From a virus, in the IMG/VR virus record IMGVR_UViG_3300021375_001164, positions 1-22,249 of that record: 22,249 bases of DNA. The stretch is one strand, 5' to 3'. The notes below the pieces were generated by a model. The model made no database searches, was not told the DNA's origin, and saw only the letters and a program-made list of their open reading frames with translations. Position 1 is the first letter of the stretch. Every line of letters starts with the position of its first letter. The position numbers and the translations under genes are program-made. This document shows, in pieces, positions 1,516-19,908 of this stretch.

Positions 1516-2940
1516 TTATTCGTCTCCAGGTAAGTTGTTTAAAAATTGTCTTAGTTTGGTGCTGTCAGTCTCAGCTCTAATTTTAGGTGCTGCTGCTCCG
1601 TCCGCAGGATCTTCACTGGCTGTGTTAGTGCGTTTTAGACTGTTTACAATACTACTAGCACCCTTGCTTGCGCCAGCACTTGAATAGTCACTGTCTTCAT
1701 CTTCATCACAGTCTATGATGCGCAGTGTGTCTTGATCAAAGCCTAGATCAATCTTTTGTCCTACACCGCTTGAGTTACGTGTCTTCATTAGCTGTAGCTG
1801 ATAGCGTCCACGTTCACGCATTGCTCTACTGGTAAAGATACCAAACACGTTGTCTGCTGTTTGAATCTTACTAAGTCCGCCCGAGATATGCGAGTGATCA
1901 AATTCAATCTCTTCTACTGCTCCGCGATTCAACTGTGCCGCAGTAACAAACACTGTGTTCAATTCCATTGCCAAGTTGCGTAGTTCTTCACTTACATACT
2001 TGTCTTTGATAAACAGGTTCTCTGCACTTACTTTTGTGCCAGCTGGCATCAACAAGTCCAAGTAGTCTATGAGCAGTACGTCAACTTTCTTGCCTGTTTT
2101 GATCTCATACTCTTTGATATAGCTGCGTACATCGTTTGCAGTCTTGCCACTAGGCATATACTTGACTTGGAATGCACCGCTCTTCTTGCCGATCATCTTT
2201 ACTTTGATCTCTACGTCATCAATGTTCTTAAACACATCACGTGTGCTGATGCCTGTGACCATACTGTCAATGCGCATACTAACTAGACTTTCTGCAAGCT
2301 CTAGTGTGAGGTACATCACGTTCATGCCCTTCTCAGCCATGTTAACGCCGATGTTAGCTAAGAACAAACTCTTGCCTGCACCCGAGCCGCCTGCAAAGAT
2401 ATTCAGCTCGCCTCTGTTAAAGCCACCAAACAATTTCTTGTCCATAGCAGCCCAGCCAGTACTAACCTGTCCGTTTGTACTCTTGATGCCTTCTAGACGT
2501 GTTCTAGGATCTGCCCAGTAGTCTGTGCCCAAGTCTTTTTGCAAGCCTATTTGTACAGCTTTCTTTACTAGATCCTCACACGCACCATACTCGCCCTTCT
2601 CCAACAGGTCTGCACTTTTAAGAATAGCTGCTTCTAGTGCTTTGTGCTTTGAAAACGTTTCGAAGTCTTGCAACAACCAGTCATAGTGATTTTCTTGTAG
2701 TTGTCCGGGATCTTTCAAGTCTGCCTTTGTAGCAGCGTTCAACATATCGAATGTAGGCAGTGCGTTGTGTTCACTTACATACTCTGTGAGAAACTTTGCA
2801 CCTTCCTGCAAGCGTCTATCAAATGCTTGAGGATCAAATACTGCTTGACAGCGAACGAAGCTCTCGGCATCGCTCATCATCATTTCAAGATATACCTTTT
2901 GTATATCATATCCATAGTCTGTGTTTTGTCTTGTGCTCAT
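1516..2940 (-). CDS. 41: T4 gp41-like replicative DNA helicase (DnaB family)
   Basis: A hexameric 5'-3' helicase that drives the replication fork with the primase encoded just upstream. At 474 aa it matches T4 gp41 (475 aa) in length. Visible motifs are Walker A GGSGAGKS (184-191), the LTLELAE segment (211-217) carrying the DnaB-type catalytic glutamate, and Walker B VDVLLIDYLDLL (286-297); a RecA-like C-terminal core follows an alpha-helical N-terminal domain. The C-terminus has a Ser/Ala-rich linker and a charged tail. The ATG has no SD, and a consensus promoter ends 6 nt before it, so the mRNA is predicted to be leaderless. The GNAT-like gene follows directly. Confidence 0.95.
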   Translation of the reverse strand: MSTRQNTDYGYDIQKVYLEMMMSDAESFVRCQAVFDPQAFDRRLQEGAKFLTEYVSEHNALPTFDMLNAATKADLKDPGQLQENHYDWLLQDFETFSKHKALEAAILKSADLLEKGEYGACEDLVKKAVQIGLQKDLGTDYWADPRTRLEGIKSTNGQVSTGWAAMDKKLFGGFNRGELNIFAGGSGAGKSLFLANIGVNMAEKGMNVMYLTLELAESLVSMRIDSMVTGISTRDVFKNIDDVEIKVKMIGKKSGAFQVKYMPSGKTANDVRSYIKEYEIKTGKKVDVLLIDYLDLLMPAGTKVSAENLFIKDKYVSEELRNLAMELNTVFVTAAQLNRGAVEEIEFDHSHISGGLSKIQTADNVFGIFTSRAMRERGRYQLQLMKTRNSSGVGQKIDLGFDQDTLRIIDCDEDEDSDYSSAGASKGASSIVNSLKRTNTASEDPADGAAAPKIRAETDSTKLRQFLNNLPGDE

Positions 2941-2946
2941 GTGTTT

Positions 2947-2975
2947 ATTATACTACCTGTGCCATTTGTTGTCAA
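2947..2975 (-). promoter_or_regulatory. Consensus sigma70-type promoter for gene 41
   Basis: On the minus strand TTGACA (2975-2970), a 17-nt spacer and TATAAT (2952-2947) match the -35/-10 consensus perfectly. The -35 lies inside the carbamoyltransferase coding end, and that gene's TAG stop (2955-2953) directly abuts the -10. Exactly 6 nt (2946-2941) separate the -10 from the helicase ATG, putting the expected start of transcription on or next to the A of the ATG. Being host-consensus, it is likely an early or middle promoter. Confidence 0.88.
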
Positions 2976-3939
2976 GTGTTGTTCTGCTTTTAGTCTTTGC
3001 TAATACTGCTCCTATGCAACTTCCTGGGTCACCTGGGTTCTGTGGAACGTGTACTGTATGCCAATCAGTTAGTAATGCAACTGCTTGCCTATTAAGTGCG
3101 CCGCCGCCTGCAAGTGCTAAGTTCTTAGAACCTGTCTTGCTTTTGGTCCAACATGCCAAGTTAATCAAGCAATACTCAAACACCTGCTGTGTAGCTGCTG
3201 CAATGTCATACATATCCTGTTCACTAGTAAGCTCCGGTCTCCACCAGCTTACACCTCTGTGCATGTTCTCTCGCATGCGTATGTAAGGGTCACAACCCAT
3301 ACCACGTGTTTCTACTAGTTCTTCAAGTATAGGCATAAACAATCTATGTGGGTCACCTTTGGCTCCCCACTGGGCTACCAAGTATTCATCACGCTGTGCT
3401 TGTAGGCCCATACGTTGTGTCATAGCACTATAGAACAATCCAAGGCTATGTGGATAACCCTGACTGTGTATCTTCTTTAGGCCTCGTTCTGTACCATGCC
3501 ATACGGTTAGGGTCTCGAACTCTCCTATACTGTCTAAGCATATTACAGCACAGTCTACATAGGGTTGGGTGTAATATGCATAAGCAGCATGACTCAAATG
3601 ATGCTGGGTGTACTCTATTTTGCAGGAGATGTTCCACTGTTTAAGGTAGGCTCTGATATTGTTCTCTTTGCCTAACCAACCTTGTCCTGCACGCCATTGT
3701 CGCAGGGTCTTTAGGAACGGACGTTCATACCATATGACTTTGTTGGGCTTGCCATATTGCAGTGCATGTTCTACAATAGCATCATTTAGATCAGGGTCAT
3801 TAGGTACACCACTAAAGTCTCGAGCAAGGCCTGCCCACATTAGTCGTGTAGACTGATTAGGCCCAAGTCCTTTCCGGGCATCATCAAATACTGCAATACT
3901 TGCGTCGTGGCTATTACCGACTATGCCCCAAGTAATCAT
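2953..3939 (-). CDS. NodU/CmcH-type carbamoyltransferase, N-terminal (Kae1-like) domain only
   Basis: A 328-aa protein covering only the first domain of the NodU/TobZ carbamoyltransferase family. Motifs in order: WGIVGNSHDASIAVF (4-18), metal-binding HHLSHA (113-118) with D136 in CLDSIGE, GLFYSAMTQRMG (167-178), ALAGGGALN (275-283) and NPGDPGSCIGA (301-311). Full-length members run to roughly 550-600 aa because a YrdC-like C-terminal domain makes the carbamoyl-adenylate intermediate; that domain is absent, and the frame ends naturally at TAG. It may need a host partner for the intermediate or have a different acceptor reaction. Its ATG overlaps the stop of the 44-aa gene (ATGA). It sits between primase and helicase genes. 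Confidence 0.85.
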   Translation of the reverse strand: MITWGIVGNSHDASIAVFDDARKGLGPNQSTRLMWAGLARDFSGVPNDPDLNDAIVEHALQYGKPNKVIWYERPFLKTLRQWRAGQGWLGKENNIRAYLKQWNISCKIEYTQHHLSHAAYAYYTQPYVDCAVICLDSIGEFETLTVWHGTERGLKKIHSQGYPHSLGLFYSAMTQRMGLQAQRDEYLVAQWGAKGDPHRLFMPILEELVETRGMGCDPYIRMRENMHRGVSWWRPELTSEQDMYDIAAATQQVFEYCLINLACWTKSKTGSKNLALAGGGALNRQAVALLTDWHTVHVPQNPGDPGSCIGAVLAKTKSRTTLDNKWHR

Positions 3940-4070
3940 TTGTAGATAAACGGGTCTTTTTCCCGTAGTTCTTTCATACGCTTACGAAACTTAATTTCTT
4001 CTTTAATTTTACGATAAGGCCATGCAATCACATCCCATATCTTTTTTAATATCTTTTTTATGCGAACCAT
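3936..4070 (-). CDS. 44-aa basic conserved phage peptide
   Basis: A short gene reading MVRIKKILKKIWDVIAWPYR..., ending in REKDPFIYK. It has a basic amphipathic start, one central Trp/Pro hydrophobic stretch (IWDVIAWPY) and a highly charged Lys/Arg/Glu second half. I recall similar short proteins ending in DPFIYK in marine T4-like phages; this is memory, not a search. It overlaps the primase stop by 13 nt and shares ATGA with the carbamoyltransferase start, so it is translated as part of the primase operon. Function is unknown; the pattern suggests a membrane-surface or nucleic-acid-associated peptide. Confidence 0.72.
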   Translation of the reverse strand: MVRIKKILKKIWDVIAWPYRKIKEEIKFRKRMKELREKDPFIYK

Positions 4071-5038
4071 TTTTTTGCTCTCAGTCTAATTTTAAGTGGG
4101 CTAGTTTCAGCAGCACTAGCAATACTGTATAGTGTATATAGTCTACCGTACTTATCAACACTATCGCCTATATCATTAATATCTTGATTCCATTCCGGTA
4201 AACTAACTCCCCAACCTCTTTCGATAGCTTGCTCTACTAGTTTACTGCCTGCTTTGTCTCTGTCTGGTACAACTATAATGTCTTTGTTGAGCTTGTCGAT
4301 CAACATAGCCTGTGCATCATTAATCTCACTACCGCCCAGTGCGCAACCTTCTACGTGAATAGCATCTACTTGTCCTTCACATAGAATAGCAAATACTTTG
4401 TTGTATCCTTGTTCGTCTAGTCCGTATACAAAGCCAGGTTGTGTTTCTGTCAGATACTTGGGTTTCTTGTCTGCTGCGATAGTTCTAGCAGTCCATCCTA
4501 CAATACGCTTCTCATAGTAAAACGGAATAATAAGTCTATCACGGTATGCTAGACTTGGGCTCCAATAATAATCTGTATCATCTAAGTTTAGACCACGTGC
4601 AGCCATATACTCAACAATTGCTATACTAAACTTATTAAACTCTGTTATGTCTGCAATCTTAACTGCATCTGGTGGCAATGGTACAGTTTCAAATGTAGGC
4701 AATTCAATCTTACGCTCTGCTACCTCAACGCCTTCGTTTAAGCGCATGACGTCAAATGTCAGCCGTGTTATTGTATCATCACTACAGTTCATCCACTGTA
4801 GAAGCTTACGCAGCTTGTTAGACACCGGTCTACCTGGTTGCCAGCTTGCTTTGTATCCACAGTTAAAACAATGATAGCTAACTGTATCACCTTCGCTAAT
4901 CAGCCCACCGCGACCTCTGGTGTCAGCAGTGTTGCCATTGTGCTGACAACAAGGCGCATTAAAGCTAGTCCACCCACTAGGAGTAGTCTTTCGCTTTGCT
5001 GGCAAGTGTGCTGTAATTGTGTCGGATACAATACTCAT
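4058..5038 (-). CDS. 61: T4 gp61-like DNA primase
   Basis: Makes RNA primers for lagging-strand synthesis and pairs with gp41 in the primosome. At 326 aa it is close to T4 gp61 (342 aa). The N-terminus carries a zinc ribbon with Cys30/Cys31-x-His33 and CFNC (57-60). The TOPRIM core follows, with LCEGQVDAIHVEG (219-231) supplying the catalytic Glu221 and VVPDRDKAG (256-264) supplying the acidic DxD. ATG is the only sensible start because the zinc ribbon begins soon after. There is no SD, and a strong promoter ends 6 nt upstream. The 44-aa peptide and carbamoyltransferase genes follow in the same unit. Confidence 0.93.
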   Translation of the reverse strand: MSIVSDTITAHLPAKRKTTPSGWTSFNAPCCQHNGNTADTRGRGGLISEGDTVSYHCFNCGYKASWQPGRPVSNKLRKLLQWMNCSDDTITRLTFDVMRLNEGVEVAERKIELPTFETVPLPPDAVKIADITEFNKFSIAIVEYMAARGLNLDDTDYYWSPSLAYRDRLIIPFYYEKRIVGWTARTIAADKKPKYLTETQPGFVYGLDEQGYNKVFAILCEGQVDAIHVEGCALGGSEINDAQAMLIDKLNKDIIVVPDRDKAGSKLVEQAIERGWGVSLPEWNQDINDIGDSVDKYGRLYTLYSIASAAETSPLKIRLRAKKWFA

Positions 5039-5072: not shown

Positions 5073-5846
5073 TTAGTTTCTAACTAGGATTTTTGTAACA
5101 GTATCGGCTGGATTTTGTGAAGTAACAAATCTTAAATAGTTAAACACACCGTTAAAGTTAGAAATCTTAGGTTCTGTTTCTGTTCCGTTAAAGATTGAAA
5201 AAGATATATCAACCCAATTAATTTGTGATGGATCACTAAGGTCGTTATCTAATGTAGCTTGTATTGTTATTCTTCCTACATATTCATCAGTATAAAATGC
5301 TACAGTATGCAAAGCTTCATTGCCATTTATTCCTGGTTCAGCTGTAATTAAATTAGAGTTCCATACACTACCATCTTGTGTAAATGTAGTAACAGTGTTA
5401 CTGATTTTTGGTCCAGGATATGCTTCACTACTTAATTTTATGATACCTTCTTGTGCAAAGTGACTGCTACTATAAGTTAGTGTAGATGCTGTAGTAGTAT
5501 CGTCTCGGATAGTAATATTATAACTAAGATATTGATCTTTTAAATTTATTGTATCACTATCATTAATAACAACACTAACTAATCCTTTAATATTACTATC
5601 ATTTGTGCCATTACGGGTTATGGATAAATTTTTGTTTTCGTCAAAGGCTACAAAATTTATAGTCTTGCCTGTTAAATCAATAGGTTTTTGATCAGCATTT
5701 AAAATCTTAAATTCTAATGTATTATCGATTCCTCTATACACATTTAATTGTCTACTATACACTGGTTTATACTCCGTAACAAATCCTGCATCATTAGTAA
5801 TAATGACTGTTTTATTTTTGACTAAATATCTTGGTACTAATTGCAT
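5073..5846 (-). CDS. Probable virion structural protein
   Basis: A 257-aa protein starting MQLVPRYLVKNK, rich in beta-strand-forming, Thr/Asn/Ser residues and without cysteine. It resembles my memory of a conserved marine T4-like structural protein with the opening ITNDAGFVTEYKPVYSRQLN and an N-terminal region like baseplate/tail-fibre upper proteins. I chose the ATG at 5846: an in-frame GTG at 5867 has no SD and would place the late promoter motif inside the gene. The motif GATAAATA at 5859-5852 ends 5 nt before the ATG. It is divergent from the plus-strand gene, with only 21 nt between the two starts. Structural role is likely; exact virion position is unknown. Confidence 0.65.
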   Translation of the reverse strand: MQLVPRYLVKNKTVIITNDAGFVTEYKPVYSRQLNVYRGIDNTLEFKILNADQKPIDLTGKTINFVAFDENKNLSITRNGTNDSNIKGLVSVVINDSDTINLKDQYLSYNITIRDDTTTASTLTYSSSHFAQEGIIKLSSEAYPGPKISNTVTTFTQDGSVWNSNLITAEPGINGNEALHTVAFYTDEYVGRITIQATLDNDLSDPSQINWVDISFSIFNGTETEPKISNFNGVFNYLRFVTSQNPADTVTKILVRN

Positions 5847-5851
5847 AACAA

Positions 5852-5859
5852 TATTTATC
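5852..5859 (-). promoter_or_regulatory. T4-late-type promoter element
   Basis: GATAAATA on the minus strand matches the NATAAATA form of the T4 late promoter (TATAAATA, recognised by the phage sigma gp55 with the gp45 clamp). It lies just 5 nt before the ATG at 5846. In T4 the element spans about -13 to -6, so transcription would begin on the start codon. There is no -35, as expected for this class. It is the only such element I found directly before a start codon in the window. Confidence 0.6.
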
Positions 5860-5867
5860 GGAATCAC

Positions 5868-6236
5868 ATGTTAACAAAAGATATACAAGAAAATTTTCCC
5901 TTCCTGAGCGTAGTAACATATGGTGGTCAAGAATATATCGGTGTCATAATTAATCAAGATGCAACTGTTACAAGTATGTATGTTTATACTGATATAAAAT
6001 CAGAACTTGAACAACGTACATTTTTAGATCTAGGAGAAATATGGTGGTGGGAATCAAACAGAATGATTCCTATTAACATATTCTTGCGCGGAGAAATTGA
6101 ACCTTTTAGATATGCAATAATGACAATGAATAGCAAAGATGTAAAAGTGTCAATAGGTCCTTGCGTTAATTTAAACAATTTAACTGTTAAACGTATCAAA
6201 CGTAAAAGCGTTCAATTAGTACGTAAACCTAAGTAG
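5868..6236 (+). CDS. Conserved marine T4-like phage protein, function unknown
   Basis: The only plus-strand gene, 122 aa, starting MLTKDIQENFPFLSVVTYGG. It has a compact beta-rich pattern with a Trp-rich LGEIWWWESNRMIPINIF stretch (about 54-71) and a basic C-terminus (VKRIKRKSVQLVRKPK). I recall close relatives in marine T4-like phages, always unnamed. The ATG at 5868 is preceded by GGA 5 nt upstream; an upstream in-frame ATG at 5841 would overlap the divergent gene's start and has no SD. Its stop overlaps the stop of the convergent minus-strand gene (6229-6236). I see no clear promoter. Isolation on the opposite strand suggests separate timing or recent rearrangement. Confidence 0.8.
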   Translation: MLTKDIQENFPFLSVVTYGGQEYIGVIINQDATVTSMYVYTDIKSELEQRTFLDLGEIWWWESNRMIPINIFLRGEIEPFRYAIMTMNSKDVKVSIGPCVNLNNLTVKRIKRKSVQLVRKPK

Positions 6237-6789
6237 TCAATTGCTCACACAATAAATTCATATGTACTACACATGCCATTGCGTAGGACACTGAATGTGC
6301 TTTCTTAAAATAGTATTCGCCATTAGTCGGCTTAGTCCAAACTTCCTTCATTATCGTTTCCCAGCTTTCGTTCGCTAGGTGTCTCTTGGCTGGTCGAATT
6401 ATCGCTAGTGTCGCTGCTAACTGTGATACCGAGCTGGGCTTCAAGACTTTTAATAGACTGCTGTGCCCGTTTAGATGAAAGACTTTTTCGCTGAAGTCCT
6501 CGTGCTCCAATAGTTCCCATAGTGGTTCTCTTTCCATTAGTTCTGTTAAGTGATCATTATCTCTAACGTCTTTGTAGATGCTTACATTAAGGAAGTCTAG
6601 TTTAAAGTATCCACGTTCTTCTGCTGTCTTATGTTCGATTGTAGATAAGTTATCCACAGGGTTGTGTGGAATCTCTGTTGCATACACACCAGTGTTATGC
6701 TTCTTACCTGTGTTTAACTTTGCCACACGATGTTTAATCTGAGATAGAATAATATCTCTGTCTGGAAAGTCTATATCGATATCAGGCAA
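6229..6789 (-). CDS. Miniature DNA polymerase III alpha (DnaE)-like protein
   Basis: A 186-aa protein carrying several conserved DnaE palm-region blocks in the right order. LPDIDIDFPDRD (1-12) resembles the DnaE PDxDxDF block with two catalytic aspartates. GVYATEIPHNP resembles GVHAAGVVI. GYFKLDFLNV resembles KFDFLGL, which has the third aspartate. VFHLNGHSSLLKVLKPSSVSQ and ATLAIIRPAK resemble FQLES..KDLLKKLKP and ALYRPGP. YYFKKAHSVSYA resembles FNKSHAAAYA. The PHP, thumb, most finger, beta-binding and OB parts are missing. I place the start at TTG 6789, which has GGAGA 6 nt upstream and overlaps the deformylase stop; an in-frame GTG at 6849 lacks an SD. Polymerase activity is unproven. Confidence 0.72.
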   Translation of the reverse strand: MPDIDIDFPDRDIILSQIKHRVAKLNTGKKHNTGVYATEIPHNPVDNLSTIEHKTAEERGYFKLDFLNVSIYKDVRDNDHLTELMEREPLWELLEHEDFSEKVFHLNGHSSLLKVLKPSSVSQLAATLAIIRPAKRHLANESWETIMKEVWTKPTNGEYYFKKAHSVSYAMACVVHMNLLCEQLTT

Positions 6790-7279
6790 ACTGTTTCTCC
6801 AATTTACGTGCTTTCTTTTGAGCCATGTCCCATTTAAGTTTGCTTGCACGATCTTTGAATGTAATGCCTAACAAATGATCCAGTTCGTGCAAGTAACACT
6901 TAGCACTATAACCTTCAATCTTTACAGTTTGTTTTTCTAAATTTTCATTATACCATTCTGCAAGTATTTCTTTAGGACGTTTGATCTTAACAAACACATT
7001 TGGAAAACTTAGACATCCTTCGATGTCGTCTTGTGTATCCGATGTATATTGCAGTACAGTAGGATTAATACACATTGTACTATTCTCTACACTGTCGCCC
7101 ATTACAAATACTTTAGCATCAAGTCCAATTTGATTTGCACTTAGTCCAATGCCGTTGTTCGCAATCATAAACTCGACCATTTCTTTTTTGAGTTCAACTG
7201 GGTCAAATCCTGGATTTTCTAAATCAACATCTTTAACTTCGCGTTCTAAAAATTCGTTTGGATATTTAATTAAGTTCAT
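6782..7279 (-). CDS. def: Peptide deformylase
   Basis: Removes the N-terminal formyl group from nascent proteins. The 165-aa protein has all three family motifs: GIGLSANQ (43-50), EGCLS (87-91) with the metal-binding cysteine, and HELDH (131-135) with the two metal-binding histidines and catalytic glutamate. It is a complete, typically sized enzyme. Deformylases are a known auxiliary gene in marine cyanophages. The start has AAAGGAAAG about 6 nt upstream and overlaps the preceding stop by 4 nt (ATGA); the stop overlaps the TTG start of the next gene. It is probably active and translationally coupled to both neighbours. Confidence 0.95.
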   Translation of the reverse strand: MNLIKYPNEFLEREVKDVDLENPGFDPVELKKEMVEFMIANNGIGLSANQIGLDAKVFVMGDSVENSTMCINPTVLQYTSDTQDDIEGCLSFPNVFVKIKRPKEILAEWYNENLEKQTVKIEGYSAKCYLHELDHLLGITFKDRASKLKWDMAQKKARKLEKQFA

Positions 7280-7965
7280 AGTTTACTTTCCTTTACTACA
7301 TCTTTTACAAGTTGTACGTCTGATGTTTGTCGTTTAAATCTAATACCCCAGTGTTGAGGATCTACAATATGATAGATCATACTCAACTGTTCATCATTAA
7401 ATTTACTTAGCATGTCCTTGCCGCTCTTACAATTAAGCATGAGCCACGGTGAAATCTTTCCGTCCCTGATATGCCATACTGCTCTATTAGGCGATGCATA
7501 TAAGAAGTAATGATTCCAAACACTATTGTTTTCAGCAGCCCACTCTACCATAGTTTCAATACTACGTTCTAATGCAGTTTCTACACCTTCTTTTTTAATT
7601 AGTTCAATAGCATATGTTTCATACATTTCTTCCCTGCACCAATGATCAAGTTTAACTCCCGATGTTACAACGTAGTTAATATACTTCTCAGGGTACAACG
7701 GTTTCACATTAGATACAAAACTACCAAACTTTACAAACGCATTATAATAACTGCTTTTGCAAAACTCTTCATAGGTTTTATCTTTCTTTGCGCCTGCACT
7801 AAGTTTATAGAATTGATTAAATGCATAAAATCCTAAGCGTACTCTGCGTTCATCCTTTTGCAATGCTCTGCGTTTCTTTTCACATAGGTGCGCCATGAGA
7901 GTTGATTCTCTTACATAACTACTTCCGCAGTACTCGCACTTATATGGCTTAGAGCTTGATGTCAA
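7276..7965 (-). CDS. Conserved phage protein with N-terminal C2H2 zinc finger
   Basis: About 229 aa. Near the N-terminus, YKCEYCGSSYVRESTLMAHLC has the C-x2-C and a His/Cys-ending pattern of a C2H2-like zinc finger, followed by a basic segment (EKKRRALQKDERR). The remaining 170 residues are a conserved domain I remember from marine T4-like phages without a name; it includes YYNAFVKFGSFVSNVKPLYP and the Trp-containing VWNHYFLYASPNRAVW. No ATG start exists. TTG at 7965 overlaps the preceding gene's end by 17 nt and has AAGAG 7 nt upstream; a TTG at 8028 would give 250 aa with a long overlap. Start is therefore uncertain. Likely nucleic-acid binding, by the finger only. Confidence 0.75.
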   Translation of the reverse strand: MTSSSKPYKCEYCGSSYVRESTLMAHLCEKKRRALQKDERRVRLGFYAFNQFYKLSAGAKKDKTYEEFCKSSYYNAFVKFGSFVSNVKPLYPEKYINYVVTSGVKLDHWCREEMYETYAIELIKKEGVETALERSIETMVEWAAENNSVWNHYFLYASPNRAVWHIRDGKISPWLMLNCKSGKDMLSKFNDEQLSMIYHIVDPQHWGIRFKRQTSDVQLVKDVVKESKL

Positions 7966-8416
7966 TTTCGTGCTCTTCTGCAAGTTGTTTAAGTTCTTTT
8001 TTTGTAGATATTCTAGCAAGTGTTTCAACCTCGTCTGTCTTTAGGTGTGGATATATTTTTTCTAGCAGTTGCATTGCCTTGCCTGTACTGCCGTCACGTT
8101 TCTTAAAACCAATCCAAGGATGAAATTCATTCTTACCTGTGTTACCGCACATGCACAACAACTGCCACATTAGTTTTTGATGTCCGCGATCTTTGCCAAC
8201 ACCAATATCATTAAAATGTTTATTGTAGTACTCGTTAGTTTTAAACACAGCAAGTTCTTGCTTTTCTCGACTACCTTGTACGCCACTAACATATCTATTC
8301 AACAACCAAAAGCTAATTTGCTTCTTGTGATCATCTTCCAAGTGATTCCAAATCTCACTTTCACCATTGTCGATCCAACTGAGGATTTCTTTTATTGCAA
8401 TTTTTTCTGCTGCCAT
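7949..8416 (-). CDS. Conserved phage protein, possibly clamp-loader small subunit-like
   Basis: A 155-aa mostly helical, charged protein. The arrangement of ISFWLLNRYVSG (34-45), FKTNEYYNKHF and HQKLMWQLLCMCG, then a basic Trp-containing GKNEFHPWIGFKK, is reminiscent of T4 gp62 (clamp-loader small subunit), where NALSQFP, MN and a basic W-containing segment occur in similar order. This is a weak visual resemblance; gp62 is normally next to gp44 and gp45, which are not here. The ATG follows GGAGG at about 10 nt and overlaps the kdsB 3' end by 25 nt. Confident as a gene, low confidence in any function. Confidence 0.78.
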   Translation of the reverse strand: MAAEKIAIKEILSWIDNGESEIWNHLEDDHKKQISFWLLNRYVSGVQGSREKQELAVFKTNEYYNKHFNDIGVGKDRGHQKLMWQLLCMCGNTGKNEFHPWIGFKKRDGSTGKAMQLLEKIYPHLKTDEVETLARISTKKELKQLAEEHEIDIKL

Positions 8417-9081
8417 GTTTCAACATCCTCCGGGGTATTAATCTCTACTCCATTAAAGTATACACTCTGTACACCAATTTGCCAACCGTTTTTTAGCCAA
8501 CGTAGTTGTTCTAGTTTCTCTATACGTTCTTCTTTTGGAATCTGCATACTAGGATACAGTTCCAATGCAGTACGTTTATAACCATACACTCCTAAGTGCC
8601 ATTCTCCATATCCTGTCATTCCTCTACCAAACCATAGAGCATTGTCGCCTGCACGTATCATTTTAACTGAGTTAAGATTGTTTTGTTCTTGTTCAGGCAT
8701 GTTAGTGTATACTGTACTTACTGGATAGTACTTCAACTGTTTAACACATCCTTCGATCATCTCTACTGTTACATTTGGCATATCGCCCTGTACATTTATG
8801 AATTGATCATAATCATTAAATGTTCTACTGTTTACAGCACCTGCACATCTTTCTGTACCATTTTCATAATCATGTGTGTCTATATAAAAATCTACGCCTG
8901 CTGCCTTTGCTGCTTGCGCAATCGTTTTATTATCAGTAAGAACGTATGTGTCATATCCACTTGCTTTGCAAGTTTCTGCCACACGCTGTATCATTGTTTT
9001 ACCATCTAACAATGCCAACGGCTTTCCAGGGAAGCGTGTGCTTCCGTATCTAGCGGGTATAAGAATAGCGGTGGATGTCAT
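8392..9081 (-). CDS. kdsB: KdsB-like CMP-Kdo synthetase (3-deoxy-manno-octulosonate cytidylyltransferase)
   Basis: Activates Kdo or a related ulosonic acid with CTP to CMP-Kdo. The 229-aa protein has the nucleotide-binding IPARYGSTRFPGKPL (8-22), NVQGD (96-100) with the magnesium aspartate, and HLGVYGYKRTALELYP (162-177), like the HIGLYGYR block of KdsB. Two deviations: the C-terminal VDTPEDL motif of E. coli KdsB, which provides the second metal-binding Asp, reads INTPEDV (Asn215), and the usual SRxxIP segment is WFGRGM. The substrate may therefore differ from standard Kdo. It starts with strong GGAGG and overlaps kdsA by 32 nt, so the two enzymes are tightly coupled. Confidence 0.85.
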   Translation of the reverse strand: MTSTAILIPARYGSTRFPGKPLALLDGKTMIQRVAETCKASGYDTYVLTDNKTIAQAAKAAGVDFYIDTHDYENGTERCAGAVNSRTFNDYDQFINVQGDMPNVTVEMIEGCVKQLKYYPVSTVYTNMPEQEQNNLNSVKMIRAGDNALWFGRGMTGYGEWHLGVYGYKRTALELYPSMQIPKEERIEKLEQLRWLKNGWQIGVQSVYFNGVEINTPEDVETWQQKKLQ

Positions 9082-9811
9082 CGACTACCTCCTCAAAGTC
9101 TTCTAGTCGCAACATGTTAGGACCGTCACTAGGTGCATTGTCTGGATCAGGGTGTACTTCTAAGAAGAAGTTGCTAACGCCCATAGCAGCGGCAGCGCGA
9201 GCAAGACCTGGAACGTAATCACGATTACCGCCAGACGATTCACCGGCCCCTCCAGGTTTTTGTACTGAGTGCGTTGCGTCAAATACGATCGGAACGCTAA
9301 AGTTATCAAGCATGTACTGCAAGCCAGTAAAATCGACCACAAGATTGTTATAACCAAAACTAGTACCTCTTTCTGTTATCCAAACTTCTTTAGCACCTTC
9401 TGTTTTTGAAAGGATACCTTTTACGTCCCACGGTGCAAGGAACTGTCCTTTTTTGATATTTACAATACAATCTGTAGCACAGGCTGCACGTATTAAATCT
9501 GTTTGACGACAAAGAAACGCAGGAATCTGAATGACATCGACAAACGATCGACATCTACTTATTTGTCCTTCTGTATGAACATCTGTTAAGATCTTCACAT
9601 CAAGTGTTTCTTTTAATGCCAACAGATCAGGAAGTGCAGCGTCTATTCCCACACCACGCTCGCCACTCATAGATGTGCGATTTGCTTTGTCGTAACTAGC
9701 TTTAAAGTAATACTCGATGCCATAATTGTCACATACACGTTTACACTCTTTGGCAATCTCTGCACTCTGTGCAAGTGTTTCGTGTTGACACGGTCCTGCA
9801 ATAATTCTCAT
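9050..9811 (-). CDS. kdsA: KdsA, Kdo-8-phosphate synthase (metal-dependent type)
   Basis: Condenses phosphoenolpyruvate and arabinose-5-phosphate to Kdo-8-phosphate in the cytoplasm. At 253 aa it is a nearly complete TIM barrel. Motifs: IIAGPC (3-8), FKASYDKANRTS (36-47), ILTDVHT (74-80), IQIPAFLCRQTDL (94-106), VNIKKGQF (117-124), ERGTSFGYNNLVVD (147-160) and FDATHSVQ (177-184). Cys8, His181, Glu218 and Asp229 sit where the Aquifex-type metal-dependent enzymes bind metal; E. coli KdsA has Asn instead of that cysteine. The start has AAGGA 6 nt upstream and overlaps the previous stop by 4 nt. No KdsC phosphatase or KdsD isomerase is in the window, so the host may supply those steps. Confidence 0.93.
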   Translation of the reverse strand: MRIIAGPCQHETLAQSAEIAKECKRVCDNYGIEYYFKASYDKANRTSMSGERGVGIDAALPDLLALKETLDVKILTDVHTEGQISRCRSFVDVIQIPAFLCRQTDLIRAACATDCIVNIKKGQFLAPWDVKGILSKTEGAKEVWITERGTSFGYNNLVVDFTGLQYMLDNFSVPIVFDATHSVQKPGGAGESSGGNRDYVPGLARAAAAMGVSNFFLEVHPDPDNAPSDGPNMLRLEDFEEVVDDIHRYSYTR

Positions 9812-11203: not shown

Positions 11204-12667
11204 TTAATTCCAATCCACTTTTTCAATAGTAAAGGGATACTCTGCTTCTTTGTAAAATTTCTTACGCTGAGTTAGATGTCGCTTCGCAAACTTACAAGTA
11301 CTTGTAAGATCCCATATTTGTACGAAGTCTTTATCTTTTGCCTTTCTTACGCCTCTACCAATACTTTGTATAACACGCACGAAAGACTTACCAGGCTCAA
11401 GAAGAACAAGATTAAAAATACGTGGAATGTTAAGCCCGACGGCGGCGACTCCATACGTTGCGATAATGACTTCATTAGTTCCTTCGCGAATCGTGTCATA
11501 TGTTTCCTTTCTGTCTTTAACCTTAACACTTCCGCTAATGAACGTGCTGTTGGGTATAAGTGTTTGTAGTGTTTCGCCTGCACTAATTCTATCTACAAGA
11601 ATTAGAGTATTGCCTGATTGTGATACTGTGTTCATCATCTTACCAATGTATTCCAAACGTGCTGTATCTGAAGTTAGATATTTTAGTTCGCTTTGATAAT
11701 CTCTATGTGCAACAGTGTCGATTAGTTGTACTACGTTAACGTGACAAGTTGACAACACACCTTTGTCTTGAAGTTCCTTTGCTGTAATTGACCCGACTAC
11801 AGGACCTAAACTTGCGTGAATACTTTCAAACTCAAACTTCTCTCTTGGTACTGTGCCAGTTAGTCCCCAGCGAATAGGAGCGTTGCGTAGGTTGCGAGTA
11901 AGCAAGTTCTTAAGAACTTCTGCTTTCGCCATGTGTACTTCGTCAACAATAACAGTGCTTACACCTTCTAAGAACTCTGCCAGTGATAACACTGCGCTTC
12001 CGTCTTTGTGCTTCTTGTCCAAAATATTTAAGGATTGCCAAGTACATATAGTGTGAGTCTTACCTAGTTGTTTTCTGTCGCCAAAGTACACCCCTACGTC
12101 TAATCCACAGTTAATATAGTCTTCTTCAGTTTGTTCTACTAGGCTCTTGTTAGGAACAATAACTAGACTACGCCCGTAAGGTTCACTGATGTGTGATAAC
12201 GTAGCTGTTGTAATTGTCTTGCCTGCGCCTGTAGCAATCTGCTGTAGACTCTGTGGATTAGCAATAAAGTTGTTGATTGCTTCTACTTGATAATCACGTA
12301 GAATAATTTCTGTACCTGCTACTGGATGACCTTCAGGCCATACAACGCCTTGGTCTGCCCAATAGCGTTCTGTAACTGGTTGAAAGTTTAAAGTAATAGG
12401 ATGTCGTCTATCTTCAATGTCTACAATCTGTACATTGTTCTTTGCCAGCACTTCACTAACAACATCAAGGTGATTGACATAGCCAGTGCCGCCAATGCCA
12501 AAGAAAGCAACTTTGCCATCCCACCGACCTAGTTTATACTGTGGCATATGCTTTGCATACGGCACTTCAAACTTAAGAGCATTTGCGAGCTTTCGGCGTA
12601 CATCAACATCAAGACCTTCTAGTTTAATGTTTACTTCATCTTCGATTATTAATTTACAACTAGCCAT
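11204..12667 (-). CDS. uvsW: UvsW-like DNA/RNA helicase
   Basis: An SF2 helicase that in T4 unwinds branched recombination intermediates and R-loops and shifts the phage from origin- to recombination-dependent replication. At 487 aa it is close to T4 UvsW. Motifs: Q-like LRDYQVEAI (123-131), Walker A ATGAGKT (145-151), DEVH (242-245), GLTGT (268-272) and motif VI QSIGRGVRK (434-442). The N-terminal 100 residues contain the family's small substrate-binding region (YKLGRWDGKVAFF). It overlaps the preceding 390-aa gene by 8 nt and shares that gene's promoter. In T4 uvsW lies near uvsY; here the glycan island separates them. Confidence 0.95.
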   Translation of the reverse strand: MASCKLIIEDEVNIKLEGLDVDVRRKLANALKFEVPYAKHMPQYKLGRWDGKVAFFGIGGTGYVNHLDVVSEVLAKNNVQIVDIEDRRHPITLNFQPVTERYWADQGVVWPEGHPVAGTEIILRDYQVEAINNFIANPQSLQQIATGAGKTITTATLSHISEPYGRSLVIVPNKSLVEQTEEDYINCGLDVGVYFGDRKQLGKTHTICTWQSLNILDKKHKDGSAVLSLAEFLEGVSTVIVDEVHMAKAEVLKNLLTRNLRNAPIRWGLTGTVPREKFEFESIHASLGPVVGSITAKELQDKGVLSTCHVNVVQLIDTVAHRDYQSELKYLTSDTARLEYIGKMMNTVSQSGNTLILVDRISAGETLQTLIPNSTFISGSVKVKDRKETYDTIREGTNEVIIATYGVAAVGLNIPRIFNLVLLEPGKSFVRVIQSIGRGVRKAKDKDFVQIWDLTSTCKFAKRHLTQRKKFYKEAEYPFTIEKVDWN

Positions 12668-13838: not shown

Positions 13839-13867
13839 AGTATAACTTAAATTAGCTTAGGTGTCAA
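13839..13867 (-). promoter_or_regulatory. Strong sigma70-type promoter for the uvsW-kds unit
   Basis: TTGACA (13867-13862), a 17-nt spacer and TATACT (13844-13839; one mismatch to TATAAT) on the minus strand. The -35 lies in the coding end of the last glycan-island gene, whose TAA stop (13849-13847) falls in the spacer. Six nt (13838-13833) separate the -10 from the ATG at 13832, as for gene 41 and primase. No SD is present. Confidence 0.86.
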
Positions 13868-14689
13868 GTTCTTTAATGGCAATCCTGCTGCAATTTCTTC
13901 TATAGTATATTCGGTGTGAGCGTAGTCATTGAGCCATTGTGTTCTATCTGGCATTAGAGGCTGTTCAATATGATGTAAAAAGTCTATGTCGTTAGCAACA
14001 TCGTAAGCAAGACTATGGGTACTAACGAAAGCAGGAACACCATTGATACAAGAGTGAATCCCCGGATTTGAGCTGTAACTGATAGTAGCCCAAACATTAT
14101 CAAAACCCATATCGAAATCATCATAAGTGTTAGTAACATGTCGAGGTTCCTGTCTGTATACGTTTTTAAATTCTTTTTCGATATGTGCTAACGGACATCT
14201 TGGATGTGGCCGAAATATAATAGGGCGGTCTGTGTGTTTGCGTATTTCACTAATAGTTTCTATAACCCAGTTACTCATCCTAGGCATTCCTTGCCATTGA
14301 AGACTTTTATCGTGTTGTCCTGCTATTAGTATATACTCGCCGTCAGTACGCCACGGCTTTACTTCCAAGTTAAGTAAGTTACTCCTATCACTGCTATTAC
14401 CAATATCGCCAAAGAAAGCATCTCTGTTAATACCATTTAATCCAACCTTCCAAGTTGTTCCTCGTTTAATTCCACCGACTTCAAGTACTATAACTGGTTT
14501 GGTTTGATTCCAGATAGCTTCGTTTCTAGCCATTCTGCCATTCCAAAGAACACTCCAAATAACATTAACATCAGCGTCAATATTGTTATAAGAAACATCA
14601 TGCCCAGCAGCCACAAGACTGTGATCAAAAGCATCGAAAACTGGTCTACTATTAAGCGCACCATTGTGTGTCCATAAACTAAATCTCAT
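13847..14689 (-). CDS. KpsC/KpsS-like glycosyltransferase (paralogue 1)
   Basis: A 280-aa protein, last gene of the glycan island. The second half has EVKPWRTDGEYILIAGQ (109-125), IRKHTDRPIIFRPHPR (149-164) and NVWATISYSSNPGIHSCINGVPAFV (198-222). The RPHP block and the SxSS-P-[IL]-x-[GAS] block followed by GVPA resemble capsule-synthesis GT-B proteins of the KpsC/KpsS type, which transfer Kdo. The KPWR and IRKHTDxPI blocks are shared almost word for word with the gene at 19909. The ATG directly follows the methyltransferase stop, with AGG upstream. Glycosyl transfer is likely; donor sugar is inferred, with kdsA/kdsB in the next unit making CMP-Kdo plausible. Confidence 0.7.
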   Translation of the reverse strand: MRFSLWTHNGALNSRPVFDAFDHSLVAAGHDVSYNNIDADVNVIWSVLWNGRMARNEAIWNQTKPVIVLEVGGIKRGTTWKVGLNGINRDAFFGDIGNSSDRSNLLNLEVKPWRTDGEYILIAGQHDKSLQWQGMPRMSNWVIETISEIRKHTDRPIIFRPHPRCPLAHIEKEFKNVYRQEPRHVTNTYDDFDMGFDNVWATISYSSNPGIHSCINGVPAFVSTHSLAYDVANDIDFLHHIEQPLMPDRTQWLNDYAHTEYTIEEIAAGLPLKNLTPKLI

Positions 14690-15229
14690 TTATCGCCTAA
14701 TAAACATTAAGCCGTATTTTCTCATAAAAGCTTTGCCCATAGTTGTTGAAGTTCTAATCATATCAGTTCCCTTTTGGTCATAGTCAAAACCATATTGATT
14801 AAATATTTCTATCCAGTATTCTTTTGTATTACAGTTAACATGATGATGACCTTTTTTACCAGGAGGTGCATGTGTACAAATTACATATTTTGCTGCTTGA
14901 AAAGCTGGCATATAGTTTGGTATAAATTCTTCGTACACATGTTCTAAAAATTCTACGCTCCAAGCAAGATCAAATTCTTCATCAATTGAAAACTTGCCTT
15001 TACTAAAATCAAATTGTATTTGCAAATCATCTTTTAAACATCTAGGGTCGCCTTCAATTCCAATAGCACGTAGACCTCTTTTTCTTGCAGCTTCGACCTG
15101 ACATGCTTGTCCACAGCCGATATCGATCATGCTTGTTATATTGAAAGTTTCAATTACTTTATCTAAACTGCCTTCATCAACCCAGCAGCGTCCTTCGCCA
15201 CCGCCAAGGTGTTCTTCAACTTCTAACAT
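14690..15229 (-). CDS. SAM-dependent methyltransferase (class I)
   Basis: A 179-aa Rossmann-type methyltransferase. Motif I is MIDIGCGQ (34-41), followed by AIGIEGD (55-61) as the acidic strand-2 end, and FDLAWSVEFLEHV (about 85-97), matching the motif IV region of small-molecule methyltransferases. HAPPGKKGHHHVNC follows, as in proteins that modify sugars or lipids. The start has AAGGAG 6 nt upstream within the end of the preceding gene, and there is no gap between the two. Located between a DxD glycosyltransferase and a KpsC-like gene, it probably methylates a glycan residue, an inference from context. Confidence 0.85.
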   Translation of the reverse strand: MLEVEEHLGGGEGRCWVDEGSLDKVIETFNITSMIDIGCGQACQVEAARKRGLRAIGIEGDPRCLKDDLQIQFDFSKGKFSIDEEFDLAWSVEFLEHVYEEFIPNYMPAFQAAKYVICTHAPPGKKGHHHVNCNTKEYWIEIFNQYGFDYDQKGTDMIRTSTTMGKAFMRKYGLMFIRR

Positions 15230-16075
15230 TTAAAACTCCTTCCAATATGCTTCTGTTCTTTTAACCATAATATCTTTTTTAAGACTTTTGCCAGTATCTT
15301 TGCGCCCGCCTTTCATATGATCCATCCACTTGCCTAGCGGGCCGTTGATCAATGGATGTCCACCGCCGCCTGACTTAGCTTCTTTCAAATACATTTCTGC
15401 GCTATAATCGTGTGATGGAAATTCACTATACTTCTTTAGCAGCTCGCCAAACACATAACTGTCATGCCATTCTTCTAATGTAAAGATACCGTTCTCTGCG
15501 TCTTCGTACATACGCTCAAAGTCTTCTAAGAAACTATGACACACAGGATGATTTAAATTTAGTCCGTAGAACCCGCACTCTGGCCAAGTCTGCGATCCTT
15601 TACCTCTACCAACATATGTAATGTAAGCATTGTCTGGTAGTAGTTGTGCAAAGTCCTCATATTCCCAAGGACTGTGAATAAAGCTATCTGCATCCATCCA
15701 CACACACCACCCCTTAGAGCGTGTACAAGCGTCATACACAGCGTATGTCTTATTGGCGAACCGTATAGCATCCCACTTGAATTCTTTGTTCCAATCCTTG
15801 CGTTTGCTGCGTACAGGGTCATTGCTAACGTCTCCATTAGCTTTGGGAACATTGCCCCACTTTGCTTTGAACACATTTAGTTTAGGTAATACTGCCTTTG
15901 CATCTAGTATTTCAATACGACTTGGATCAGGATTAACAGGCTTACAGTCTTCTGCATACACTAATAATTTAATACGCTTGTCGACTCTTGCAGCAAAACT
16001 ATCTAAGAATCGTTGTCCGTATTTTGATAATCCTGACGGGTGAAATGTTGTTAATACTGTTATTTGTTTGCTCAT
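15230..16075 (-). CDS. GT-A-like glycosyltransferase with DAD motif
   Basis: A 281-aa protein starting MSKQITVLTTFHPSGLSKYG. GWCVWMDADSFIHSPW (122-137) carries a DxD motif (128-130) at the end of a hydrophobic strand, as expected for metal-dependent nucleotide-sugar transferases. ECGFYGLNLNHP and the EEWHDSYVF segment downstream look like acceptor-side and catalytic regions. The C-terminus is rich in Gly, Lys and His (SGGGGHPLINGPLGKWMDH). The true start is the ATG at 16075, which overlaps the preceding stop by 4 nt (ATGA); the frame upstream is open but lies inside the neighbour. Donor and acceptor are unknown. Confidence 0.82.
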   Translation of the reverse strand: MSKQITVLTTFHPSGLSKYGQRFLDSFAARVDKRIKLLVYAEDCKPVNPDPSRIEILDAKAVLPKLNVFKAKWGNVPKANGDVSNDPVRSKRKDWNKEFKWDAIRFANKTYAVYDACTRSKGWCVWMDADSFIHSPWEYEDFAQLLPDNAYITYVGRGKGSQTWPECGFYGLNLNHPVCHSFLEDFERMYEDAENGIFTLEEWHDSYVFGELLKKYSEFPSHDYSAEMYLKEAKSGGGGHPLINGPLGKWMDHMKGGRKDTGKSLKKDIMVKRTEAYWKEF

Positions 16076-17004
16076 TTTATTGCCCATTTCCTTAGGTGTT
16101 TCCATGCTGTACCATCTTTGAGTTCGTCTAGTGTCCAATGCATTTGTGCCATTTTTTGTATCCATAATTCTCTATCAAACTCTTGTAAATTTTCTATTTG
16201 ATCTAAATTATGATGAGCGACATCAGCTGCTTGACTTCGATCTGGGTCTAATACAATGGTAGGAATTCCTTCAATTGCTGCTGCTATTGCCGGACTACTG
16301 TTATAATTCACAACACAATATGCATGAGAAAAATCTTGTAGTATATTTTCATTATGACTTGTTATAACATTAGGTAATTTATATCTTGCTAACATTCTTT
16401 TATGGGTTAATTGATTTTTATCGCCAGGATGAAACCTAACTACAATTGTTCTATCACTAACCTTTCTTATCTGTTGTACAGTTTTAACTAACCATGGCAT
16501 TAATGCTTTGCTGCCCATACTCCATCCACCGTCACGTTGACAGCATATTAAAATGTTTCTACCAGAATGTGTCCACGGCTTTAGTTTAATACCAAGACGT
16601 TTACTAATTAAATTCCATCTTGCAGGGTCGGGTTGATTGTTACAATATTCGCCTGTGTTAGGAAAAATGCCATCATAGCTATAACGCAGAAACTTATTAG
16701 AATTTCCTTTGTCGGCATATAAAAATAGATTGCTATCTACAATAATAGTACGTTTATTCCGTTTATGTTGATGTTCAATTACATTTTTTCTTAATTGCAG
16801 ATGTGGAGAACTTTTACTATTAGGATGTACAAACCCTTGTATTACTGCTACGTCTGTGTCGACTGGATTATAGTCGCAAACGATTTCTCCCTTGTCTCCT
16901 CTTGCCCACACACCTTCAATAAAATTTACAATAATTTTAGGCTTATCTGGATTAACGTTCTTACTAGGTATTCCCATTAAATAAGATGCTACACTTAATG
17001 TCAC
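16072..17004 (-). CDS. KpsC/KpsS-like glycosyltransferase (paralogue 2)
   Basis: A 310-aa protein. I chose GTG 17004 because AAGGAG lies 7 nt upstream and the GTGA overlaps the preceding stop; an upstream frame to 17031 lacks an SD. The family blocks are present: KPWTHSGRNILICCQ (142-156), IRKVSDRTIVVRFHPGDKN (179-197) and VVNYNSSPAIAAAIEGIPTI (231-250). The FHP block keeps the histidine-proline pair. Residues 15-60 contain a separate N-terminal region of unknown role. The closing W-x4-W pattern (DGTAWKHLRKWAIK) recurs in the neighbour at 17001 (DGTAWRIL), supporting duplication. DNA is more A+T-rich than the flanking DxD transferase genes. Confidence 0.72.
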   Translation of the reverse strand: MTLSVASYLMGIPSKNVNPDKPKIIVNFIEGVWARGDKGEIVCDYNPVDTDVAVIQGFVHPNSKSSPHLQLRKNVIEHQHKRNKRTIIVDSNLFLYADKGNSNKFLRYSYDGIFPNTGEYCNNQPDPARWNLISKRLGIKLKPWTHSGRNILICCQRDGGWSMGSKALMPWLVKTVQQIRKVSDRTIVVRFHPGDKNQLTHKRMLARYKLPNVITSHNENILQDFSHAYCVVNYNSSPAIAAAIEGIPTIVLDPDRSQAADVAHHNLDQIENLQEFDRELWIQKMAQMHWTLDELKDGTAWKHLRKWAIK

Positions 17005-17798
17005 AGTCTCTCTCCTTGTAATATTCTCCAAGCGGTGCCGTCTGCCATTTCAGGCTGTGTAAACTGTGCATATGACAAGTGTGTTAAGAATGCATACATC
17101 TCGTCTTCTGTGGGTATGCGAGGAGAGTCTACGTTTTCTATATTTGTTTCGCAGATTGCACTAGCAGCATTAGGACCTAATGATATGGCCGGCTTCCCGC
17201 ACATTAATGCTTCTGATGCAGCAATACTATTATATGTTATAAGACAATGTACGTCGTCATTAAGTGCTTGTTCTATTGTCTTAGTAGTTACTCTATCAAA
17301 TCTACTAGGTTTCATTCTAATTTCTATAGGACGATCTGTTACAGTTTTTAATTTACTTACTATGTTAGATGTCCACTCATTTGCATTTCCTTGATTAAAC
17401 AAGTTCATAATTTTATCACTCGGCGGACATACTAATATTTTTTTTCCAGGAACAAACTTTTTATAAATATTTTTCCATTTATTTTGCAATATCGTTTCAA
17501 GACGATGTACAGGACGTTCTACAAATTCTTCCATATTTTGTAGTGCATTATGTGTAATGCGATGCCATGTTTTGTGTTTAAAATTACCAAAATATCCAGT
17601 ATCGATTGCGTAAAAGGATTGTCCTAATTCCCAACATCTTTTATATGCTTTTTGGCTGCCGCCGCCAACGCCTCTAATAATAAAACTGCCGTTTATATCA
17701 GCAGGGTTCTGTGAGTAAATACCTTGGGCAAATGTACGCACAAACCCATCTTCAATATTATCTACTGTTCCAGAACCCATCTCATATATTTTACCCAT
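17001..17798 (-). CDS. KpsC/KpsS-like glycosyltransferase (divergent paralogue 3)
   Basis: A 265-aa member of the same group as the genes at 13847, 16072 and 19909. It shares PGKKILVCPPS (117-127), LKTVTDRPIEIRMKPSR (150-166), CLITYNSIAASEALMCGKPAIS (185-206) and the terminal DGTAWRIL. The histidine of the HP block, kept in all three relatives, is lost (MKPSR). The N-terminal acceptor region is also different, with a Gly-rich GVGGGSQKAYKRC stretch. It may have altered specificity or be inactive. Its ATG overlaps the preceding gene end by 8 nt, and its stop overlaps the GTG of the next gene. Confidence 0.68.
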   Translation of the reverse strand: MGKIYEMGSGTVDNIEDGFVRTFAQGIYSQNPADINGSFIIRGVGGGSQKAYKRCWELGQSFYAIDTGYFGNFKHKTWHRITHNALQNMEEFVERPVHRLETILQNKWKNIYKKFVPGKKILVCPPSDKIMNLFNQGNANEWTSNIVSKLKTVTDRPIEIRMKPSRFDRVTTKTIEQALNDDVHCLITYNSIAASEALMCGKPAISLGPNAASAICETNIENVDSPRIPTEDEMYAFLTHLSYAQFTQPEMADGTAWRILQGERL

Positions 17799-18465
17799 TC
17801 ATCATGTCCTGTAGTTCTTTTTTCCAAAGTTCGTTAAATTCACAGTCTCTATAGTTTTCAAACCACGGTCCGCCTTCGGTATAGTGTATTAGTTTTGGTG
17901 TTTCGATGTCATCATACACACCAACGAGATAATTCCAAGTGTGATCTAGTTCGCCAATCTCTTCATCTTTTAACCAACTGAACCTATGAAAATAAGCACC
18001 ATTAAGTTCTGGATCATTTACCATGTCCTGTGTAAGTCTAGCATTACTAGGATGCGCACAGTTAAACAATACAACACTGCTCCAGTTCTTACGTGGATAA
18101 ACAGTTTGCTTTTGTCCATCCATCTTCATGCCTTCTTTAGGTGTATAATCATGTTGTACACACATTACAGCATACTTGTCATCTGCTTGATCAAAAAGTT
18201 CTTTAATGTCTGTAGTAAGGATCATATCGCAATCCATAAACACTGCCCAGCCTTTAAAGTTTGCAAGTTCTGGTACTAAGAAGCGTGTAAATGTAAACTC
18301 TGTACTTGCAAGTTTATCTACAGGACGAGTATACCATCCTGCATCACGTAGCTCTTTTTGCACTAGTGGACGTACATTTGCGTTTGGTTGCCTAGTTAGT
18401 ATACTGTGCTTACACACTTGATAAGCAATATCTTCTCTTGGGTCATATCCTACAAATACTTTCAT
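17791..18465 (-). CDS. GT-A-like (GT8-type) glycosyltransferase
   Basis: A 224-aa protein starting MKVFVGYDPREDIAYQVCKHS, typical of phage and bacterial GT8-like transferases. GWAVFMDCDMILTTDI (72-87) contains the DxD motif (78-80) that binds the metal and nucleotide sugar. LIHYTEGGPWFENY near the C-terminus (about 192-205) corresponds to the His and GPW region that closes the active site in GT8. I recall close relatives in marine myoviruses. The ATG overlaps the preceding stop as TAATG. It precedes paralogue 3, so the two likely add successive residues to the same glycan. Confidence 0.88.
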   Translation of the reverse strand: MKVFVGYDPREDIAYQVCKHSILTRQPNANVRPLVQKELRDAGWYTRPVDKLASTEFTFTRFLVPELANFKGWAVFMDCDMILTTDIKELFDQADDKYAVMCVQHDYTPKEGMKMDGQKQTVYPRKNWSSVVLFNCAHPSNARLTQDMVNDPELNGAYFHRFSWLKDEEIGELDHTWNYLVGVYDDIETPKLIHYTEGGPWFENYRDCEFNELWKKELQDMMNG

Positions 18466-19238
18466 TAATCTCTTCTTTCAATATCTTCTTCATAGCATAC
18501 ACCCCATTGTATTTCGAGTATGTGTGCATTCTCTGTTCCTGGATTACTTGCTTTGTGCCAAACTTCCATACCTATTTCATATGGTCTATTATGTGCTTCT
18601 AAATGTGTAATGTTTTTAATTTCATTATACTCAGTGTCCATTTTTACTATACCTTGCAGTACTTGCCATTGTTCACTACGTTCAAAATGTTTTTGATCAC
18701 TTAGACTTTTGCCTGGATATATTACAAGTTCTTTTACTTTATAACCTTTGTCTGGAACATCATCTAGCACACGCCAGTAACCCCAATTGCGTTCTGTCTT
18801 TTGTGTTTTCCACTCATCGAGTATCCAACTACTGCTGTTAGCTTTGTTAACGCCGCCGACTCCCCACACAAATTCTACATCCGGATGATCTTTCCATGCA
18901 GTGTATTCGGGTGTTGAGGTATTGGTTCTATCGCCTCCATTGGCAAACAACAGTTTCCAACTGCTACCTTTGGTTGCTAATACAAAACCTATTGCACTAC
19001 ATGCACTGTCGTCATCGTCATTGAATCCAATAACTTCATCTACACAGCCTAGTTCTTTGATGATAGCGGCACGTTCTTCAAAGGACATAAACGGTCTGCC
19101 TTTCTTACGTGTTAACCATTCGTCACTGTTAACTCCGACAACTAAGTAATCACCAAGTTCTCGTGCTGCTTTAAAATATGCAATGTGCCCTGAGTGTAAG
19201 GGATCAAATCCGCCTGTTACTAATACTACTTTGCTCAT
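18465..19238 (-). CDS. Nucleotidyltransferase fused to phosphomannose-isomerase-type cupin
   Basis: A 257-aa two-domain enzyme. Residues 1-145 form a cytidylyltransferase-type domain: VVLVTGGFDPLHSGHIAYF (4-22) has the HxGH signature, and VGVNSDEW (34-41) and LLFANGGDR (97-104) are further family blocks, as in the RfaE/HldE C-terminal domain. Residues 150-257 match the C-terminal cupin of type II phosphomannose isomerases: NWGYWRVLDD (151-160), YKVKELVIYPGKSLSDQKHF (166-185), ERSEQWQVLQG (186-196) and LEIQWG (241-246), with Q182, H184 and E189 as likely zinc ligands. It probably prepares an activated sugar for the island. Start ATG 19238 gives TAATG overlap with the FkbM gene and a nearby GGAG; the frame open further upstream lies inside that gene. 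Confidence 0.83.
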   Translation of the reverse strand: MSKVVLVTGGFDPLHSGHIAYFKAARELGDYLVVGVNSDEWLTRKKGRPFMSFEERAAIIKELGCVDEVIGFNDDDDSACSAIGFVLATKGSSWKLLFANGGDRTNTSTPEYTAWKDHPDVEFVWGVGGVNKANSSSWILDEWKTQKTERNWGYWRVLDDVPDKGYKVKELVIYPGKSLSDQKHFERSEQWQVLQGIVKMDTEYNEIKNITHLEAHNRPYEIGMEVWHKASNPGTENAHILEIQWGVCYEEDIERRD

Positions 19239-19867: not shown

Positions 19868-19908
19868 GTTTACTTTCTCTTAATTTTAAATACTTATCCA
19901 GTATGTTT

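Follow-up and report, generated by a model that had tools for sequence, protein, structure and literature searches.

A member of the predicted split minimal DNA polymerase III alpha family in an uncultured phage genome fragment

The window analyzed here, a stretch of 22,249 nucleotides, carries a gene for a 186-amino-acid protein that is a previously undescribed member of the split minimal Pol III alpha family predicted in 2021. The protein corresponds to the C-terminal half of the enzyme (C-half), and relatives encode the N-terminal half (N-half) elsewhere in their genomes. An earlier note on this DNA had taken the gene for a lone mini-DnaE, which was not borne out; its suggestion of a reduced polymerase came close to the best reading, but overlooked a split enzyme with a separate GRGSS-bearing N-half. 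We consider it probable that the two polypeptides form a phage-specific minimal Pol III alpha, joining in trans for limited DNA synthesis in the replisome.

Results

The C-half gene starts at TTG 6789

The ORF list confirmed a 186-aa reading frame at 6229..6789 on the minus strand, where it had been placed before; its assignment as a C-half with a TTG start rests on this list, the family match and a comparison of starts. Relatives carry ATG-CCT or TTG-CCT exactly at codon TTG 6789, and upstream of this position they show stop codons or unconserved sequence. A Shine-Dalgarno-like GGAG, read from the window sequence, lies 7 nt upstream of the TTG (6797..6800, minus strand). The aligned starts and the GGAG uphold the start originally chosen. 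GTG 6849 was considered as a start and rejected, because the region before the TTG is the reading frame of a peptide deformylase and contains stops in relatives. Translation from TTG 6789 yields the N-terminus (M)PDIDIDF; therefore, the protein opens directly with the catalytic aspartate strand as its first residues.

The deformylase gene (6782..7279, minus strand), present in 24/91 loci, shares 8 nt with the beginning of the C-half gene. At its 3' end, the C-half gene shares another 8 nt with a small gene of unknown function, phrog_11637 (5841..6236, plus strand); wherever relatives had this small gene among the 91 loci, it was convergent with the C-half and encoded on the other strand (84/84).

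The C-half is related to DnaE

Profile searches matched the C-half to PHROG 11778, annotated 'DNA polymerase' (E=5.9e-61), and to the full-length phage DnaE profile phrog_405 (E=6.3e-8). When the C-half profile was run against PDB sequences, 9/9 matches were Pol III alpha, each of them weak (best E=0.019); a single-sequence phmmer search of the PDB gave no match, and Pfam DNA_pol3_finger and NCBIfam polc matched the window protein below the cut-off only. Compared by hhalign with E. coli DnaE as a single sequence, the C-half alignment scored poorly (probability 7%), yet the blocks appeared in the right order; the corresponding value for the N-half was 94.6%. An AlphaFold model of the C-half (m6e844f62c0e1; pLDDT 88.6, pTM 0.75) was built from 68 window and IMG/VR sequences. 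In a Foldseek search with this model, the first 16 matches were Pol III alpha or entries named only 'DNA polymerase', followed by noise, with modest scores (best E 0.003, best TM 0.46). Taken together, the two PHROG matches, the PDB profile matches and the structure comparison, with Pol III alpha as the best match, bear out the family C kinship that the earlier note had read from the motifs.

The blocks aligned to E. coli DnaE residues of about 397–420, 535–641 and 753–767. At only 186 aa, the window protein has no PHP, thumb, beta-binding, OB or C-terminal domains, and the C-half is also without most of the fingers (~643–741 in E. coli) and everything after ~770. The loss of PHP, thumb and clamp-binding parts claimed previously was thus confirmed. 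The claim that the fingers are lacking was only partly right, because the retained KxHSxSYA block is the finger O-helix carrying the steric gate. Judged by its sequence, the window protein is a DnaE-type family C palm half with a cut-down finger.

Catalytic residues are invariant and the gene is under purifying selection

Among 94 distinct C-halves, 16/184 columns were invariant, and these include D401, D403, D405, K553, D555 and H760 (E. coli numbering). The chance that five preset columns (D401, D403, D405, D555 and H760) would all be invariant is ~3e-6 (hypergeometric). H760 and the RP pair were part of the search patterns, so ascertainment accounts for some of their invariance; the catalytic aspartates lay outside these patterns, and their conservation, which had been predicted, held in 94/94 distinct relatives. 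In the window, the DIDID codons (6769..6783, minus strand) correspond to D401, D403 and D405, that is, metal ligands and the DnaE-specific Asp. Alignment and invariance assign the K-L-D codons (6595..6603, minus strand) to K553 and D555, the latter being the third metal ligand, and place the R132-P133 codons (6391..6396, minus strand) in the LKP...IIRP block (E. coli ..ALFRPG, around 641). The H165 codon (6295..6297, minus strand) corresponds to H760, the finger steric gate, and is invariant in all 94, with the pattern ascertainment just mentioned. D401, D403 and D555 bind catalytic magnesium across family C, and D405 is DnaE-specific, being Asn in PolC (PMC3919608); the steric gate of the finger O-helix has been proposed to be H760 (PMC8485763).

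Furthermore, pN/pS of the C-half gene against its relatives was 0.13–0.35, indicating that the gene is under purifying selection, and no frameshifted or aspartate-less copies occurred among the 94 distinct C-halves. These data bear on the idea that the gene is a degenerate relic of a captured DnaE. Its shortness and the loss of most DnaE domains would suit a relic, but a relic should decay, and no decay was seen: the active site is invariant, dN/dS is low, the C-half occurs on at least 599 IMG/VR contigs, and length and split are uniform in the ORFs compared. We therefore regard a relic as scarcely credible.

Relatives encode a separate N-half

A DnaE profile search revealed a second small ORF in 10/10 named jumbo phages, with GRGSS or, in the N-half of Atu_ph07, GRGSC. 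This ORF matches the DnaE part immediately upstream of the palm aspartates. The only significant PDB matches of the N-half profile were Pol III alpha (4.5e-5), and an AlphaFold model of the N-half (pLDDT 92.8) had Pol III alpha or PolC as its top 12 Foldseek matches. Mapped onto E. coli DnaE, the N-half stops at residue 393 and the C-half picks up at Met399, which leaves a gap of only ~5 DnaE residues. The position of E. coli R390 is Glu in N-halves. Length and split were the same throughout the ORFs compared (~100 of each half), and a Rosetta stone search among these found no fused N-half and C-half ORF.

In family C polymerases, GRGSS and K553 bind the triphosphate. The label 'NTP-binding' applied by PMC7824862 provides a second basis for this assignment. 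The N-half is absent from the 22-kb window, which is a genome fragment. Weak extra matches to the N-half profile (E about 1e-6) were observed at two loci, L053 (G007:83348-83704) and L032 (G008:822-1025), within frames of 563 and 420 aa, respectively.

The two halves co-occur in phages that carry a family B polymerase

Among uncultured virus records, both halves were present in 5/5 that were seeded with the C-half and measured at least 180 kb, and in 7/7 that were seeded with the N-half and measured at least 228 kb. One 191-kb N-half-seeded record was without the C-half, an absence that a fragment could explain. In the phage collection, 59/60 listed C-half records also list the N-half, the exception being a 109-kb record. 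Alishewanella phage Slicko01, whose complete genome of 141 kb is too small for a jumbo phage, carries both halves and a family B polymerase. An initial suspicion that Slicko01 might be without the N-half was rejected: the RaK2 N-half query had missed the gene, and the profile found it.

Distance trees of the two halves agree (r=0.78, 0/5000 permutations), with 11/21 splits shared. Such agreement fits co-inheritance, would be expected from vertical descent alone and is no proof of contact between the proteins.

The pairing also bears on the earlier suggestion of a decoy against the host Pol III holoenzyme, which it would bind or poison. The C-half does resemble part of the host alpha subunit, but a decoy should keep the parts of alpha that dock the clamp, tau and epsilon, and it is these parts (PHP, OB, CTD and the beta-binding tail) that are missing. 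Moreover, invariance falls on catalytic residues and not on surfaces, and the C-half accompanies the N-half in phages whose hosts are unrelated. The decoy idea is thus unsupported, and we consider it very improbable.

A family B polymerase was found in 15/15 large relative genomes tested and, as noted, in Slicko01, which verified the expectation that phages of this kind use one. None was found among the window genes examined, the contig being a fragment.

A search of bacterial genomes in the genome collection for a cellular ancestor returned 13 C-half loci, 12 of them in titled MAGs of mixed phyla and the thirteenth in an uncultured-bacterium bin. Given this small number and its near restriction to MAGs of mixed phyla, the C-half is a phage family. 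The C-half contigs concerned (L216-L228) were binned in MAGs of Neomarinimicrobiota, Natrialbaceae, Pacearchaeota and others, and are most likely mis-binned phage contigs.

The C-half gene lies in a replication module

The window C-half sits in a helicase–primase–uvsW neighbourhood, which is the observed context of the family. The replication module comprises a gp41-like DnaB-like replicative helicase (1516..2940, minus strand; 65/91 loci), a gp61-like DNA primase (4058..5038, minus strand; 78/91 loci) and a UvsW-like helicase (11204..12667, minus strand; 69/91 loci); the UvsW and helicase counts are limited by contig ends. Upstream of the C-half on the same strand, a C2H2-zinc-finger-like protein, phrog_11058 (7276..8028, minus strand), is encoded in 88/91 loci, and it is a candidate third component of the mini-polymerase.

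Several genes of other kinds are interspersed on the minus strand. A BppU-like (baseplate/virion) protein, a structural-type gene inside the replication module, is encoded at 5073-5867 between the primase and the C-half (78/91 loci), and a Nol-like carbamoyltransferase at 2953-3939 between the helicase and the primase (51/91 loci). KdsB-like CMP-KDO synthetase and KdsA-like genes lie within the replication operon (8392-9811), with homologues similarly placed in 29 and 25 of 91 loci, respectively. Glycosyltransferase-like, methyltransferase-like and heptose-adenylyltransferase-like ORFs occupy 13847-21496 between the replication genes and UvsY; judged mainly by reading, this run is a surface-glycan gene island.

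Examination of four named phages placed the N-half no more than a few genes from a gp44-type clamp loader (AAA-ATPase); in most of these phages, a GroES-like or a 'head morphogenesis' gene separates the two. A GroES/gp31-like co-chaperonin gene just after the N-half was seen in several phages (L209, L210 and L213) and also in Slicko01.

Discussion

The co-occurring halves, their constant split position and their replisome locations suggest how such an enzyme might work. The N-half (~170 aa), encoded elsewhere beside the gp44-type clamp loader, would contribute the GRGSS dNTP-phosphate motif, and the C-half would be the Mg2+- and template-binding part, consisting of the palm from the DxD strand on and the cut-down finger with its O-helix. 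We infer that the two halves associate and rebuild one pol-beta-fold nucleotidyltransferase site in trans, in which GRGSS and K553 would hold the triphosphate, D401, D403 and D555 would hold two Mg2+ ions, and H760 would exclude ribonucleotides. This small enzyme would act in the phage replisome, with its helicase–primase and clamp loader, beside the family B polymerase; its most plausible task would be to synthesize short stretches or to fill gaps on DNA that is primed or damaged. The grip on the template and the contacts with the triphosphate must differ from those of the E. coli enzyme, because the thumb and the fingers at ~643–741 are gone.

Because the thumb and most of the fingers are missing, the halves could instead form an active two-part pol-beta-fold nucleotidyltransferase that is not a templated polymerase, namely a terminal transferase or end-processing enzyme, which would add nucleotides to ends or remove them, or a regulatory subunit of the replisome that uses the site only for sensing dNTPs. 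The metal ligands, K553 and GRGSS are all kept, and these phages already own a family B polymerase. However, the finger O-helix is retained together with the sugar-selecting H760, suggesting that dNTPs are selected on a template, and the gene module is a replisome module; we therefore consider non-templated activity unlikely. Returning to the minimal polymerase, a bolder proposal, which we put forward tentatively and would not count as the likelier outcome, is that it is the smallest family C polymerase known: a heterodimer (~170 + ~190 aa) that is active only when assembled in trans, that is without PHP, thumb and clamp-binding domains, and that provides a large T4-like lineage, already equipped with a family B replicase, with a second polymerase dedicated to its replisome.

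Should the pair prove active, it would constitute a family C polymerase of ~350 residues encoded by two genes and a test bed for the minimal needs of the DnaE catalytic core, and it would also bear on why phages with a family B replicase retain a bacterial-type polymerase. The two-half proposal itself was already published: in 2021, Iyer et al. (PMC7824862) described, for 'group 2.2' jumbo phages with a family B polymerase, a minimal Pol III alpha whose two parts are encoded by genes far from each other. A truncated alpha subunit noted in the CBB genome paper (PMC5259590) is the N-half. No experimental follow-up or biochemistry on the split polymerase was found in the open-access literature. 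To this, the present analysis contributes a precise split position, at the conserved Met399, and the recognition of the steric gate; it also finds the family very widespread in uncultured phages, no fused version among the ORFs compared and one carrier that is not a jumbo phage.

Compared with the group 2.2 split Pol III alpha (PMC7824862; PHROG 11778 being its C-half), the window member shares a standalone C-terminal Mg2+/template-binding half of about 190 aa beginning at the DxD strand, a replisome neighbourhood and, in its relatives, a distant N-half and a family B polymerase. It differs in coming from an uncultured phage fragment, in its TTG start and in the peptide deformylase directly upstream, and any N-half and family B polymerase of its own would have to be encoded beyond the 22-kb contig; the 141-kb carrier extends the split family beyond jumbo phages. 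Full-length phage DnaE (phrog_405; group 3.2 jumbo phages) has the same catalytic blocks, but in single long proteins with a PHP domain, the polymerase that defines that phage group (PMC7824862). PolC shares the C-family aspartates and has Asn (PMC3919608) where the C-half has Asp at the D405 position, which marks the C-half as DnaE rather than PolC type. With bacterial DnaE (E. coli Pol III alpha), the phage version has D401, D403, D405, K553, D555, H760 and the block order in common, whereas PHP, thumb, OB and CTD are absent, the finger is cut and the N-terminal half of the palm is a separate gene.
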